This document shows, in pieces, positions 1,982-49,030 of a DNA stretch of 64,000 nucleotides (positions are counted from its first letter, which is position 1; each line of letters begins with the position of its first letter). The stretch is from the NCBI RefSeq assembly GCF_030811595.1, contig NZ_JAUSRB010000001.1:1612001-1676000 (forward strand). Direction: 5' to 3'. The translations under genes were made by a program, and so were the position numbers. Under the pieces are notes generated by a model that worked only from the letters and a program-made list of their open reading frames with translations, did not search any database and had not been told where the DNA came from. The stretch comes from Streptosporangium brasiliense. GTDB lineage: Bacteria; Actinomycetota; Actinomycetes; Streptosporangiales; Streptosporangiaceae.

Positions 1982-2000
1982 TTGAGTCGATGTAACTCAA
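1982..2000. promoter_or_regulatory. HAIR operator (HspR binding site) for lon
   Basis: The sequence TTGAGT-N7-ACTCAA matches the core of the HspR-associated inverted repeat (consensus CTTGAGT-N7-ACTCAAG), lacking only the outermost C/G pair. It ends 14 nt before the lon start codon. In Streptomyces, lon is a known HspR target together with dnaK and clpB, so heat-shock repression by HspR is the likely control. HspR itself is not in the window. Confidence 0.85.
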
Positions 2001-2014
2001 CCTTTGGAGTTCGC

Positions 2015-4384
<2,370 letters not shown>

Positions 4385-4508
4385 CCCGCCGTCCGCACGG
4401 CCCGTCCTCTCCGGAGGGCGGGCCCGCGCTCTTTCCGGAGGGCCTTGTCCGGAGGGTGGGGCCCGGGCCTCCGGAGGTCTTCTCCTCCCACGGGAGCCGG
4501 CGGACTCC

Positions 4509-4575
4509 GTGGCGGACATCGCCGCGCCGCTGCCGCTGTACGTGATCTGCGAGCTGCTCGGCGCGCCGGCCGAGA
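4509..4575 (+). pseudogene. Cytochrome P450 fragment (relic)
   Basis: About 22 codons read VADIAAPLPLYVICELLGAP, the segment of actinobacterial cytochrome P450s that follows the helix with the consensus D-x-V-x-x-x-A-x-P-L-P-x-x-V-I-C-E-L-L-G-V-P. No P450 sequence is seen on either side, and neither the I-helix nor the haem-Cys motif is present, so this is a remnant rather than a gene. Confidence 0.65.
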
Positions 4576-4698
4576 CGCGCCCGGCGGGACCGGCCGCGGC
4601 GGTCCCGGCGCGGCGTGATCGAAGTCACATGACCTACCGGGAATCAAGGTAAGCAGGGCCGCGTTGACGCACACGTGAACGTGGCGCATCGTGAACAC

Positions 4699-4791
4699 AT
4701 GACCCCGCAGGGCCGGGTCGTGTGTCGTGGCATGCGCATGTGTCAGGCCTCTCCCATGCGGGCCATGCGCCGCATGTGCCTCATGCACTGA
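4699..4791 (+). CDS. Met/Cys-rich leader peptide upstream of metNIQ
   Basis: A 30-codon ORF ending 170 nt before metN. Seven of its 30 residues are Met (1, 12, 14, 20, 23, 26, 29) and three are Cys (9, 15, 27); the second half reads PMRAMRRMCLMH before TGA. Met is among the rarest residues in ordinary proteins, so such clustering just ahead of a methionine-importer operon suggests a ribosome-stalling attenuator that senses charged tRNA-Met. The inverted repeat CATGCG/CGCATG (4755-4776) overlaps the Met codons. The ribosome-binding site is weak, and an in-frame GTG at 4681 is an alternative start. No SAM riboswitch was recognised. The function is inferred. Confidence 0.7.
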   Translation: MTPQGRVVCRGMRMCQASPMRAMRRMCLMH

Positions 4792-4834
4792 AAGCCCGCA
4801 CTCGCCCGTTCCCTCTACGAAGGCCCTGAGAACC

Positions 4835-4906
4835 ATGACCTGCCCCGCGGACGGCCTCGTCCTGCGCCGTCTGAGCCATCTCCCCTTCCACCCCGGCACG
4901 CGCTAG
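4835..4906 (+). CDS. Second mini-ORF in the metNIQ leader
   Basis: A 23-codon ORF beginning MTCPADG and ending FHPGTR-stop, between the Met-rich leader and metN. The short GACGGC/GCCGTC stem at 4850-4871 lies inside it. CTTCCCC just beyond its end (4910-4916) could pair with the GGGGAA of the metN Shine-Dalgarno region. Whether it is translated is uncertain; it may only be part of the structured leader. Confidence 0.3.
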   Translation: MTCPADGLVLRRLSHLPFHPGTR

Positions 4907-4961
4907 CTCTTCCCCCGCTCTGAGGTCTTTCGACGATCCGTCTTGATGGTGGGGAACAGTT

Positions 4962-5924
4962 GTGATTGATGTGTCAGGCCTGCGTAAGGTCTATCGAGAT
5001 CGGGGCCGTGAGGTGGTCGCCATCGACGGCGTCGACCTCCACGTCCGCGAGGGGGAGATCTTCGGCGTGCTCGGGCAGAGCGGCGCCGGCAAGAGCACCC
5101 TGCTGCGCTGCGTGAACCTCCTGGAACGGCCCACCGAGGGCACCGTCACCGTGGCCGGGCAGGAACTGACCACGCTGGGGCAGGCCGAGCTGCGCAGGGC
5201 CCGGCAGCGGATCGGGATGATCCACCAGCATTTCGCGCTGCTGTCCTCCCGCACCGTCGCCGGGAACGTGGCCTTCCCGCTTGAGGTCATGGGGGTCGGG
5301 CAGGCCGAACGGGCCAGGCGGGTCGCCGAGCTGCTGGAGCTGGTCGGGCTGGCGGACAAGGCCAAGGCGCATCCCGCGCAGCTGTCCGGCGGGCAGAAGC
5401 AGCGGGTCGGCATCGCCCGCGCACTGGCTGGCAGCCCCTCGGTGCTGCTGTCGGACGAGGCCACCTCGGCGCTCGACCCGGCCACCACGCAGTCGATCCT
5501 GGCCCTGCTCAGGAGCCTGAACCGGGAGCTCGGCCTGACCATCCTACTGATCACCCACGAGATGAACGTCGTCAAGTCGATCTGCGACTCGGCCGCCATC
5601 ATGCGCAACGGCCTGATCGAGGAGTCCGGGGCCATCCCGGAGCTGATCGCCAGGCCCGGGTCCCGGCTCACCGCGGAGCTGTTCCCCCTCCCCGCGCCGG
5701 ACCCCGGCACCGTCACGATCACCTTCACCGGACAGGCCGACGAGCCCGTGGTGTCGGAGGTGGTCCGCAAGTTCGACGTGGACGTCAACATCCTCGGCGG
5801 GGCGCTGGAGGAGGTGGCCGGCGTCTCCGCCGGACGCCTGCGGGTGCGCCTCACCGGTGACGAGCGTGACGCCGCCCTCGCCTACCTGTCCGGGCGCGGC
5901 CTGCTGGTGGAGGAGAGCCGGTGA
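4962..5924 (+). CDS. metN: Methionine ABC transporter ATPase MetN with NIL domain
   Basis: ATP-binding subunit of the D/L-methionine importer MetNIQ; 320 residues. Walker A GQSGAGKST is at 38-46, the signature LSGGQ at 141-145, Walker B VLLSDE at 161-166 and the switch His near 199. The C-terminal region (about 245-320) has the NIL fold typical of MetN, which in E. coli MetN binds methionine and inhibits transport. The GTG start at 4962 follows the GGTGGGGA ribosome-binding site. It heads an operon with metI and metQ. The preceding Met-rich leader ORF suggests transcriptional or translational attenuation by methionine supply. Confidence 0.94.
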   Translation: MIDVSGLRKVYRDRGREVVAIDGVDLHVREGEIFGVLGQSGAGKSTLLRCVNLLERPTEGTVTVAGQELTTLGQAELRRARQRIGMIHQHFALLSSRTVAGNVAFPLEVMGVGQAERARRVAELLELVGLADKAKAHPAQLSGGQKQRVGIARALAGSPSVLLSDEATSALDPATTQSILALLRSLNRELGLTILLITHEMNVVKSICDSAAIMRNGLIEESGAIPELIARPGSRLTAELFPLPAPDPGTVTITFTGQADEPVVSEVVRKFDVDVNILGGALEEVAGVSAGRLRVRLTGDERDAALAYLSGRGLLVEESR

Positions 5925-5979
5925 GCGGGCGAGTGAGCGGACACGGTGGCAAGAGGCTGCGGCCGACGGAGGATGACGT

Positions 5980-6636
5980 ATGACGTGGGACGAGATGGCT
6001 CCCCTGCTGTGGGAGTCGACCTGGCAGACCGCCCAGATGGTCCTGTGGTCCACGCTGTTCACCGTGCTGATCGGGCTGCCGCTCGGTGTGGCGCTGATCG
6101 TCACCGACCGCGAGGGCCTGTTCCCGTCCTGGACGCTGAACCGGGTGCTCGGGCTCGTGGTCAACATCGGCCGTTCGCTGCCGTTCATCGTCCTGATGAT
6201 CGCGGTGATCCCGCTGACCCGGCTGATCGTGGGGACGACCATCGGCACCGTCGCCTCGGTGGTCCCCCTCACCCTCGGCGCCGCGCCGTTCTTCGCCCGG
6301 CTGGTGGAGACCGCGCTGCGTGAGGTCGGCCGGGACAAGGTGCAGGCGGCCCAGGCCATGGGGGCCGGCGGGGCCACCATCGTCGGCAAGGTCCTGCTGC
6401 CCGAGGCGATGGCCGGCCTGGTCGCGGGGCTCACCGTGACCGTGGTCGCGCTGATCTCCTACTCGGCCATGGCCGGGGCGATCGGCGGCGGTGGGCTGGG
6501 CGACCTGGCCATCCGCTACGGCTACCAGCGCTTCGAGACCACGCTGATGGTGGTCACCGTCGTCGTGCTGATCGTCATCGTCCAGCTCGCGCAGACCCTG
6601 GGCGACACCGTCGCCCGCCGTCTCGCCCGGCACTGA
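5980..6636 (+). CDS. metI: Methionine ABC transporter permease MetI
   Basis: Integral membrane permease of 218 residues, the usual MetI length. It has about five hydrophobic helices and the EAA-type cytoplasmic loop (QAMGAGGATIVGKVLLPEAM) that couples to MetN. The start is preceded by ACGGAGGAT. It lies 55 nt after metN and 70 nt before metQ in one operon. The family transports L- and D-methionine, and sometimes methionine sulfoxide. Confidence 0.94.
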   Translation: MTWDEMAPLLWESTWQTAQMVLWSTLFTVLIGLPLGVALIVTDREGLFPSWTLNRVLGLVVNIGRSLPFIVLMIAVIPLTRLIVGTTIGTVASVVPLTLGAAPFFARLVETALREVGRDKVQAAQAMGAGGATIVGKVLLPEAMAGLVAGLTVTVVALISYSAMAGAIGGGGLGDLAIRYGYQRFETTLMVVTVVVLIVIVQLAQTLGDTVARRLARH

Positions 6637-6706
6637 CCCCTTCCTCTTCCCCGGGCCTCGCCACGAGCGGCGGCCCGTGGTCTCCCATGCCCAAAAGGAG
6701 TGCATC

Positions 6707-7546
6707 ATGCGTAAGTTCCCTGCGATCGCGTCCGCGATCGTCGCCCTGGCCGTCGCGTTGACGGCCTGCGGCTCGACCGAGCCCACCACCGCCGCGGGCG
6801 CCGCGGGCAAGGAGTCGGCGTCGGAGGTGTTCAAGGTCGGCGCGAGCCCCGTCCCGCACGCGCAGATCCTGAAGTTCGTCAAGGACAAGCTCGCCGCCAA
6901 GGAGGGCCTGAACCTGGAGATCGTCGAGTTCACCGACTACGTCCAGCCGAACGTGCAACTCAACGACGGCCAGCTCGACGCCAACTACTTCCAGCACAGG
7001 CCCTACCTGGACGACTTCAACGCCTCCAAGGGCACCAAGCTGAGCCTCGTCCAGCCGGTCCACCTGGAGCCGCTGGGCCTCTACTCCAAGAAGGTCACCG
7101 ACGTGGCCGGGCTGGCCGCGGGCGCGACCGTCGCCGTGCCCAACGACGCCACCAACCTGGGGCGGGCGCTGAAGCTGCTCGCCGACAACGGCCTGATCAC
7201 CCTCAAGGAGGGGGTCGGCACCGCGGCCACCGAGCGCGACGTGACCGGCAACCCCAAGAACCTCACGTTCCAGCCGCTGGAGGCCGCCCAGCTCCCCCGC
7301 TCGCTGGAGGACGTGGACGCGGCCGTCATCAACGGCAACTACGCGCTGGAGGCCGGTCTCAAGCCGGCCGAGAACGCGCTGGTGCTGGAGAAGGCGGAGG
7401 GCAACCCCTACGCCAACGGCCTGGTCGTGGCCGCCGGCGACGAGCAGGACCCGCGCTTGGCGAAGCTGGCCAAGCTGCTCGCCGGCCCCGAGGTGAAGCA
7501 GTTCATCGAGCAGACCTACAAGGGGGCCGTCACCCCCGCCGCCTGA
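6707..7546 (+). CDS. metQ: Methionine-binding lipoprotein MetQ
   Basis: Substrate-binding lipoprotein (NlpA/MetQ family), 279 residues from the ATG at 6707, which has an AAGGAG ribosome-binding site. The signal peptide ends in the lipobox LTAC, with the lipidated Cys at position 21. The mature protein has the family motifs FVKDKLAAKEGLNLEIVEFTD and NVQLNDGQLDANYFQHRPYL, and ends with an EQTYKGAV-type helix. It captures methionine outside the membrane for MetNI. A GC-rich hairpin closes the operon directly downstream. Confidence 0.95.
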   Translation: MRKFPAIASAIVALAVALTACGSTEPTTAAGAAGKESASEVFKVGASPVPHAQILKFVKDKLAAKEGLNLEIVEFTDYVQPNVQLNDGQLDANYFQHRPYLDDFNASKGTKLSLVQPVHLEPLGLYSKKVTDVAGLAAGATVAVPNDATNLGRALKLLADNGLITLKEGVGTAATERDVTGNPKNLTFQPLEAAQLPRSLEDVDAAVINGNYALEAGLKPAENALVLEKAEGNPYANGLVVAAGDEQDPRLAKLAKLLAGPEVKQFIEQTYKGAVTPAA

Positions 7547-44791: not shown

Positions 44792-46309
44792 GTGACTTCG
44801 GGGCCGGCCGGTGGGCAGTATCCGCCACAATCTCAGTGGCAGCAGCCACCGCAGCAATCTCAGTGGCAGCAGCCACCGCCATACCAGCCGCAGTGGCAGC
44901 AGCAACCGCCACCTCCGCCACCTCCGCCACCCCCGCCGCCACCTCCGCCCCGGCGCCGCAGGACCGGGCTCTGGGTCACCCTCGGAGTCCTCGCCGTGGT
45001 GCTGACCGTGGGGGCCGGGGCCGTGGTGGGGCTGGTGCTGAACTCGGACAAACGCCGTGATCCGTTCGAGGAGGAGGCGGTCGCCGCCGACCCGAACTCG
45101 GTGGTGGTGACCAAGAAAGACCTGCAGGCGCTCCTGCGGGGGCACACCGAAGCGCTGAACGCCGGGGACCTCAAGGCGTACACGGCGATCTTCGAGAGCA
45201 AGACCGCGGGGCTGATCCAGCAGCAGACCAGGGTCTTCAACAATCTGCGCAAGCTGCCGCTCACCCAGATGTCCTACCAGACCCTGCAGCAGCAGGGGCG
45301 TACGCAGGACAGCTTCGGCCGCGGGGTGACCTTCACCCTCGACGTCGCCTTCGTCCACCAGTTCGAGGGGGTCGACCTGCGCCCGGTCTCGGAGTGGTAC
45401 CGCTGGACCATCACCAAGAGCGGGGTCGACGCCCCGCTCAGGGTCACCAAGGTCGGCGGGGCACCGGCGCCGCTGGGCGAGTCCAAGACCGTCTACTACC
45501 CGGGACCGTGGGACATCTGGCCGAGCGTCGCGGTCGTCAAGACCGAGCGCGCCATCGTGCTGGCCCACCCGTCCATGGCCGCCCAGGCGGAGAGGATCGC
45601 CCCGATCGCCGAGCGGGCGGCGGTGAACGACCTGAACTTCGTGGCGGAGAACGGCCAGCGGGGCGAGGCGGTGCCCAAGGGCTTCGTGGTCGCGCTGGCC
45701 AAGGGCAAGGGGCAGCTCGGCAACCTGTTCCGCCAGACGAAGGCCACCGAGGCCGGGGTCTCCATCCCGATGCCCACCTGGAGCGGGTCCCCGACCGGGG
45801 TGAAGATCGGCGCGAGCCGGGTCGTGATGGACGTCACCTCACCGTTCTTCGACACCTCCGAGGGCATCGCGGAGATCTTCCGGCACGAGTTCGCGCACTC
45901 GGCGATGGCCAGCCTCGACAGCGGCAAGTTCGACCTGCTGGGACTCGACAACTGGGTCGTCGAGGGGTTCGCCGAGTACGTCGCCAACCGCGGCAGCGCC
46001 ATCAGCGCCAACATCCGCTACGACGAGGGCCGCGCCTACCTGGCCGGGCAGCTCCCCGAGCCGTTCAGGGGCAGGATCCCGGACAACATTTCCTGGGACG
46101 TACAGGGCATGACCGGCGTCAACTACCTGATGGGGCACCTGGCGATGCGGCTGATCGAGGAGAGGTACGGCGAGCGGAAGCTGGTCGATTTCGTCGCCGC
46201 GCACTACCGGGGCGACGAGAGCGCGGCTGCCCTGCAGAAGGTCCTGGGCGTCGGCGAGGCCCAGTTCCAGAGGCAGTGGGCGGGCTACGTCCGGGCCCAG
46301 CTCGGCTGA
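44792..46309 (+). CDS. Polyproline membrane-anchored metallopeptidase (gluzincin-like)
   Basis: A 505-residue protein. The cytoplasmic N-terminus is Gln/Pro-rich with 15 consecutive prolines before RRRR, followed by one TM helix (about 59-84). The extracytoplasmic region holds an HExxH motif, HEFAH, at residues 365-369, and a downstream EGFAE with Glu391 as a likely third zinc ligand, giving the gluzincin pattern of peptidase MA-type proteins. The GTG start is weakly supported by GGGGCACG. It lies 16 nt upstream of a second polyproline TM protein, so the two probably function together at the membrane. The substrate is unknown. Confidence 0.85.
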   Translation: MTSGPAGGQYPPQSQWQQPPQQSQWQQPPPYQPQWQQQPPPPPPPPPPPPPPPRRRRTGLWVTLGVLAVVLTVGAGAVVGLVLNSDKRRDPFEEEAVAADPNSVVVTKKDLQALLRGHTEALNAGDLKAYTAIFESKTAGLIQQQTRVFNNLRKLPLTQMSYQTLQQQGRTQDSFGRGVTFTLDVAFVHQFEGVDLRPVSEWYRWTITKSGVDAPLRVTKVGGAPAPLGESKTVYYPGPWDIWPSVAVVKTERAIVLAHPSMAAQAERIAPIAERAAVNDLNFVAENGQRGEAVPKGFVVALAKGKGQLGNLFRQTKATEAGVSIPMPTWSGSPTGVKIGASRVVMDVTSPFFDTSEGIAEIFRHEFAHSAMASLDSGKFDLLGLDNWVVEGFAEYVANRGSAISANIRYDEGRAYLAGQLPEPFRGRIPDNISWDVQGMTGVNYLMGHLAMRLIEERYGERKLVDFVAAHYRGDESAAALQKVLGVGEAQFQRQWAGYVRAQLG

Positions 46310-49002: not shown

Positions 49003-49030
49003 GGAATGCCGGGCGGGGGTAAGTGGTTAT
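49003..49030 (+). promoter_or_regulatory. SigR-type promoter of the thioredoxin gene
   Basis: GGAAT-N18-GTTAT exactly matches the disulfide-stress sigma factor SigR consensus (GGAAT-N18-GTT) known from Streptomyces trx genes. The thioredoxin GTG lies 66 nt downstream. Confidence 0.8.

Follow-up and report, generated by a model that had tools for sequence, protein, structure and literature searches.

How methionine import may be tied to the supply of sulfur amino acids is the question raised by a short leader in the genome of Streptosporangium brasiliense, and RNA-level tuning of methionine uptake is little known in the actinobacteria. In the 64-kb stretch of DNA analysed here (the window), this leader lies between lon (1982-4384) and the genes metN-metI-metQ (4962-7546). 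These are transcribed rightwards (plus strand) and encode the ATP-binding subunit of an ABC transporter (metN, 4962-5924), a permease (metI, 5980-6636) and a substrate-binding lipoprotein (metQ, 6707-7546), as judged by matches to TIGR02314 (the best NCBIfam match of metN, 360.9 bits, under the curated cut-off of 499.7), NF008049 (metI, 211.2 bits with a cut-off of 212) and NF008285 (metQ, E 2e-58, 197.9 bits, under the cut-off of 374). An initial annotation, made from the sequence alone, drew attention to a Met- and Cys-rich ORF in the leader and proposed that it is an attenuator sensing Met-tRNA by ribosome stalling. Further upstream, at 4509-4600, is a stretch containing ADIAAPLPLYVICELLGAP that we take to resemble a piece of a cytochrome P450; it may be the remnant of a gene that lay between lon and metN.

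Analysis confirms the Met/Cys-rich ORF ahead of metNIQ, which is conserved and exceeds chance expectation. At 4699-4791 on the plus strand it reads MTPQGRVVCRGMRMCQASPMRAMRRMCLMH followed by a stop codon, with seven Met (including the start) and three Cys in 30 codons, and both this composition and its position upstream of metN, metI and metQ are as first described; the CATGCG and CGCATG repeats also overlap the Met codons as had been stated. Among 87,881 other stop-free 30-codon stretches in the window (both strands, all frames, with starts at 4500-4900 excluded) none has at least six Met, and two have at least 10 Met plus Cys, the number in the ORF itself. The best leader ORF has at least five Met plus Cys among its 15 final codons in 9/14 genus members, 18/60 other family members, 15/19 leaders of a Streptomyces-like genus (f18 g85) and 0/1 of f47, compared with 0/94 reverse complements and 0.2% of shuffles (n = 3760). 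A weak Pfam match to PUA (E 0.05-0.07, under the cut-off) was taken as chance.

The start of this ORF, which we refer to as uORF1, is very probably not at ATG 4699 as initially annotated. In an alignment of leaders from the 14 members of the genus that have metN, this ATG is absent from four of the 12 with the ORF (L014, L018, L019 and L020; leaders and loci are designated by L-numbers), whereas a GTG at 4675 is kept in all 12, and uORF1 is absent from the other two (L016 and L017). The alignment, the frame test below and the composition together place uORF1 at 4675-4791 (plus strand), with ATG 4699 internal. ATG codons are strongly confined to its reading frame: the counts for this frame and the other two are 83, 2 and 1 in 16 leaders, 93, 1 and 1 in a further 25, and 176, 3 and 2 in all 41. 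For TGT and TGC the result is not clean (49, 73 and 15 in the first set, and 57, 65 and 8 in the second), and we infer that the second-frame excess partly reflects ATG followed by C or T. The rule used to define the frame (G-T/A-GAA at the start, 20-75 codons up to the stop and a 30-230 nt gap to the downstream uORF2) missed 14/55 loci, which were read by a looser rule, and one of these (L180) has just two Met plus Cys in its last 20 codons. Orthologous leaders thus keep a Met-rich ORF, as the in-frame ATG excess demonstrates, while its other codons and its length drift; the length varies from 24 to 48 codons across the 41 leaders, showing that composition is kept rather than position, as is also the case in other regulatory leader peptides.

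The amino acids to which uORF1 is dedicated should be read as methionine and cysteine rather than methionine alone, because Cys21 and Cys23 are kept in 15/15 Streptomyces-like leaders and in some members of the family Cys codons predominate; the leader ORF ahead of metN is Cys-rich rather than Met-rich in L077, L101 and L103. The Cys codons in the window are single and interspersed with Met, and some relatives have CC or CCC. The proposal of Met-tRNA sensing is supported in that the leader appears to read codons, but not where it was restricted to methionine.

The leader RNA had been described as structured, which was not borne out: 4675-4985 folds no better than shuffled sequences (z +0.53), nor is there excess folding in uORF1 (4675-4795, z -0.60) or in its Met-codon part (4726-4795, z +0.07). 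A simple consensus scan of 4385-5100 revealed no terminator-like site and no sigma-70 promoter, and alifold gave no clear attenuator in 17 of 19 Streptosporangium-group leaders (L011 and L012, in which the start was not found, were left out) or in 18 Streptomyces-like leaders. The initial annotation had named a SAM riboswitch at this place as evidence against its proposal, but there are no Rfam matches in the window at gathering cut-offs, and a search of 4385-5000 at E values up to 5 yielded just two sub-threshold matches to animal miRNAs. The conserved Met-rich ORF and the lack of a SAM riboswitch match together support a codon-reading leader. An attenuator of the classical terminator/antiterminator type is not supported, given the lack of a terminator in the scanned region and of excess structure.

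Two conserved features of the leader are additional to those in the initial annotation. The first is a SigR-type promoter at 4639-4665 (plus strand), with GGGAAT (4639-4644) and GTT (4663-4665) separated by 18 nt. The SigR consensus is given as GGAAT-N18-19-GTT in one account (PMC9205884) and as GGAAT-N18-GTT in another (PMC2375139). All 41 leaders examined, which were chosen as those carrying uORF2 without regard to the promoter, contain GGAAT with a spacer of 18-20 nt, and GTT is exactly placed in 39/41; the other 14 uORF2 loci have GGAA(T/C)-N17-20-GTT-N8-10-RTG within 420 nt in a looser search. Among family leaders the motif is present in 35/39 with uORF2 and in 9/35 without it. It is not rare by itself, with two occurrences in the window against 0.56 expected, and two matches in the whole genome to a strict pattern that includes a start codon against one for a reversed control, so that conservation and not rarity supports the promoter. 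The conserved GTG 4675 is 9 nt after the GTT, and from this spacing uORF1 is probably leaderless. We note that the second match in the window is GGAAT-N18-GTT at 49003-49028, and that the other strict genome match (L202:1501-1540) has a start codon at leaderless distance and precedes what looks by eye like an RpiR-type regulator. L016 and L017, which have neither uORF, contain a GGGAAT-N19-GTT promoter, and in L017 it is right at metN.

A palindrome, GTGATCGAAGTCAC (GTGA-N6-TCAC), which we take to be CRP-like, is at 4615-4628 (plus strand) and is also conserved ahead of uORF1, starting 58-62 nt before its GTG in 37/41 leaders. The window contains two such palindromes against 0.84 expected, the other being at 45824-45837.

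The second additional feature is uORF2 (4835-4906, plus strand), which encodes the conserved peptide MTCPADGLVLRRLSHLPFHPGTR ahead of its stop codon and is preceded by a Shine-Dalgarno-like GAAGG (4819-4823) 11 nt before its ATG. Of 21 leaders located solely by way of MetN (L022-L028 and the 14 from the genus), 19 contain it, with 17 distinct sequences among them. In this set pN/pS over 23 codons is 0.30, whereas the two alternative frames give 1.95 and 2.26; it is 0.15 over the last 15 codons but 1.02 over codons 2-8, indicating that selection acts on the C-terminal portion. A scan of an 84,980-species collection with the pattern [VI]LRR[LF][SG]HLPF recovered 54 loci, solely in Streptosporangium, Planomonospora, Planobispora, Nonomuraea (including '[Actinomadura] parvosata'), Microtetraspora and Thermoactinospora. 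The sameness of the pattern residues in this set is by construction, as is a bias in the pN/pS of 0.16 obtained from its 43 distinct cores, because the loci were fetched with the pattern; the five codons outside the pattern give 0.20, and the conclusion is the same. In 17 chosen diverse copies H15, P17, P20 and G21 are invariant, and 15/43 distinct cores have a further Pro before PG (PPG). The peptide matches no Pfam or NCBIfam family.

The gene after uORF2 is metN in all 54 named loci and in the window (53/55 by script, and L176 and L181 by eye), and in a scan of 394 genomes of the class the 12 strongest matches listed (E 3e-8 or better) are all just before metN; further listed matches have E values of 3e-4 and up, and as the best 22 candidates per genome were scored, diverged copies are missed. 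Such copies, for example FVLHLLSHAPYPPGTC, can be seen by eye in L106, L107, L109 and L111 (genera g37, g50 and g67 of the same family). Five Microtetraspora loci have a longer uORF2 frame, with a stop codon that overlaps the start of metN, an arrangement that would couple the two directly.

The two uORFs tend to be found together, although not universally. The class scan left 69 places in the family with metN but no locus, of which 40 were taken in and 29 left out. Among 74 family leaders 34 have both uORFs, 29 have neither, six have uORF1 alone (including L109, which is scored in this way yet has a diverged uORF2) and five have uORF2 alone; the leaders are related and the sets of loci overlap, so these counts are not independent, and the total for uORF2 is 39 by the co-occurrence script and 40 by a looser one. 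In the Streptomyces-like genus uORF1 is present in 19/19 leaders at a looser cut-off (four Met plus Cys), uORF2 in 0/19 and the promoter motif in 1/19. With one or both uORFs missing in 40/74 family leaders, and with no uORF2 in the Streptomyces-like genus, any relay through uORF2 is not universal.

A candidate for the link between uORF2 and metN is a hairpin at 4904-4962 (plus strand), whose 5' arm begins at the uORF2 stop codon and which is able to hide the metN Shine-Dalgarno sequence GGGGAA (4951-4956). In 18 leaders of Streptosporangium, Planomonospora and Planobispora its mean z is -1.34, and pairing of the Shine-Dalgarno sequence with the first 24 nt is 0.66, against 0.38 in shuffles; the window's own copy (z -0.58) is not exceptional. 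The 33 leaders of the Nonomuraea group lack the signal (mean z 0.07), covariation is nil, with no compensatory pair, and a complementarity test with 47 leaders gives p 0.14 and falls below 0.05 in none of the 47. We therefore rejected the hairpin as a general feature and retained it for the window's group only.

Both ORFs, their conservation, the promoter motif and the spacings are features of the sequences themselves, and from these we infer a leaderless start, stalling, a direction of response and roles for Rho and a relay. The most likely reading, with a probability of roughly 55%, is that this is a two-step leader in which methionine import is coupled to how much Met-tRNA and Cys-tRNA is charged, acting as a translational and possibly Rho-assisted attenuator. 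Transcription would begin at the SigR-type (thiol-stress) promoter, at or beside GTG 4675, allowing immediate loading of ribosomes on uORF1. When methionine or cysteine is short, ribosomes would be slowed on its dense Met and Cys codons, and the state of uORF1 translation would decide whether uORF2 is translated, and through it metN, as well as whether Rho gains access to the C-rich stretch between uORF1 and metN. In this scheme uORF2 would be the relay, the metN-site hairpin being kept open by a ribosome that has reached the conserved end of uORF2 or is terminating at its stop; in Microtetraspora the extended frame, with its stop overlapping the metN start, would replace the opening of a hairpin.

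The leading alternative is that Rho-dependent transcription attenuation acts alone, with uORF1 translation gating the access of Rho and uORF2 just serving to protect or position ribosomes. The lack of an intrinsic terminator in the scanned region is compatible with this, as is the base composition of the leader. The spacer after uORF1 (4792-4834, plus strand), which holds the GAAGG for uORF2, is C-rich and G-poor, and together with the remaining leader to metN it constitutes a candidate Rho-loading stretch. C exceeds G in 41/41 spacers after uORF1 and in 43/48 uORF2-to-metN intervals, compared with 2/41 for uORF1 itself and 21/41 for the sequence upstream of the promoter. Ranked by C minus G, 4792-4961 falls within the top 2.5% of the window's 170-nt stretches and 4792-4834 within the top 4.4% of those of 43 nt; within 36 loci the uORF1-to-metN interval has a median rank of 1.1%, and in 17/36 it is below 1%. 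This C-richness fits Rho, with the ranking being against stretches of the same window rather than other 5' leaders, and it may merely keep the ribosome site open. Rho was also proposed for mycobacterial Cys leaders in a 2005 survey of actinobacterial RNA elements, as a prediction that the account itself terms weak (PMC1262725). Rho alone, however, leaves the conserved end of the uORF2 peptide without an explanation, and we regard it as possible but tentative.

A different division of labour is that uORF2 is the main sensor, an arrest peptide with a C-terminal SHLPFHPGTR that would halt the ribosome in response to a small molecule (methionine or SAM, for example), with uORF1 tuning the flow of ribosomes. 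The four invariant residues, the restriction of selection to the last 15 codons, with codons 2-8 free to vary, the PPG in about a third of the cores (15/43) and, in the close group, a hairpin that begins at the uORF2 stop and can hide the metN ribosome site are all in keeping with this. Against it, the peptide bears no likeness by eye to RAPP-type or other familiar arrest motifs, the Streptomyces-like genus has uORF1 alone, and the Microtetraspora frame passes beyond the core, so that any arrest there would not be at the stop; on balance we consider this reading unlikely. A combined form, in which the C-terminal LRRLSHLPFHPGTR of uORF2 would confer metabolite-sensing arrest (methionine or SAM) while uORF1 reads the charging of Met-tRNA and Cys-tRNA, is a little more doubtful again, but if true a single mRNA leader under a thiol-stress promoter would gauge both free metabolite and charged tRNA.

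A trp-type attenuator of the classical kind, or a SAM riboswitch that escaped recognition, would suit genes for methionine uptake, but is largely refuted by the lack of a terminator, of an Rfam match and of excess structure, and is very improbable. If the uORFs were mere by-products of a leaderless promoter, with no active role, this could account for L016 and L017 and the 29/74 family leaders with metN but neither uORF, but such a reading is scarcely credible given the frame-specific Met codons, the peptide-level selection on uORF2 and the co-occurrence of the two.

The two-step leader, if the reading is true, would tie thiol stress, Met and Cys supply, and methionine import together in one transcript through the uORF pair and the SigR-type promoter. 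On its own, uORF1 is a further case of a leader already annotated in Streptomyces. What appears to be new is uORF2, with its Shine-Dalgarno sequence and purifying selection, directly before metN, and the joining of a thiol-stress-type promoter to a sulfur-amino-acid leader. In a literature search largely confined to sources outside subscription, we found neither the string HLPFHPG nor any pairing of metN with a uORF, and no published naming of uORF2 or of a SigR-type metN promoter in the Streptosporangiaceae. The dual-uORF leader is so far confined to one family and is a compact, testable object, and the uORF2 peptide makes a tangible new candidate for control of translation by a peptide.

The closest known system is MetL (MSTTSDRTPATEATTTPGARCMCRRMCAF) of Streptomyces lividans TK24, which is located ahead of metNIQ and is described as leaderless by RNA-seq, with no typical Rho-independent terminator, and annotated as an attenuator for which termination is unclear (PMC8079986). 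The initial annotation knew of no Met-rich leader for metNIQ, and this publication describes one. MetL and the window have in common a Met/Cys-rich short ORF directly ahead of metNIQ and no intrinsic terminator; MetL is leaderless by RNA-seq, and in the window the promoter spacing fits a leaderless start. Peptides of the genus f18 g85, such as MSTTSDRTPATEATMTPGARCMCRMCAF in L116, are nearly equal to the published one, and we take this genus to be Streptomyces for that reason. None of its 19 leaders has uORF2 and the SigR-type motif is seen in one, unlike the window's relatives, and the leader peptides of the two families share, by eye and with no statistic attached, short tails such as R-M-C.

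A codon table of 15 of 18 Streptomyces-like leaders (L112, L127 and L129, of other length, were left out) has Cys21, Cys23 and Met25 in 15/15, Met22 in 13/15 and Met15 in 9/15, and the sequence is conserved also at silent sites, with CGA for Arg24 in 15/15. A hairpin, CGCGCCCCGAAGCGAG, follows uORF1 in 18/18 leaders, preceded by CT in 17 and by TT in L129. Its 18-nt form is present as one perfect copy in 8/8 Streptomyces-like genomes, 3/4 of g37, g67 and g50, and 0/6 others. The silent-site conservation and the hairpin argue that part of the constraint in these leaders is on the RNA. We also note that CTCGCGCCCCGAAGCGAG follows uORF1 in L112-L129 (with T for C in L129), L107, L109 and L111, and that G142 has one extra copy of the 18-nt form with one mismatch.

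Mycobacterial polycysteine leaderless short ORFs are Cys-responsive attenuators (Canestrari 2020, as described in PMC9031893). They share with the window a short ORF with sulfur-amino-acid codons, leaderless there and predicted to be so here, and a control of downstream translation that is likewise predicted here; the window differs in mixing Met with Cys, in serving methionine import and in having a second conserved uORF. Contiguous Cys codons, the mark of the mycobacterial attenuators, do not occur in its uORF1. For methionine operons, the relevant part of the 2005 survey gives no conserved structure (PMC1262725).

The uORF1 of the window resembles trp-type leaders in being rich in codons for the amino acids of the pathway, and departs from them in having no intrinsic terminator before the gene. 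In Rho-linked leaders such as tna a translated leader peptide is followed by a C-rich stretch, with no intrinsic terminator; the window has the same succession, but with two ORFs and with a predicted role for Rho. Nascent-chain arrest peptides include SecM, TnaC and those of the RAPP type, and like these uORF2 has a conserved C-terminal peptide encoded just ahead of a gene, with conservation at the peptide level; it differs in that no known arrest motif is seen by eye and in that the gene is an amino-acid importer. With the SigR regulon the locus shares the GGAAT-N18-19-GTT promoter, and the same genome encodes an RsrA-type anti-sigma factor (99.8 bits, with a cut-off of 62.5).
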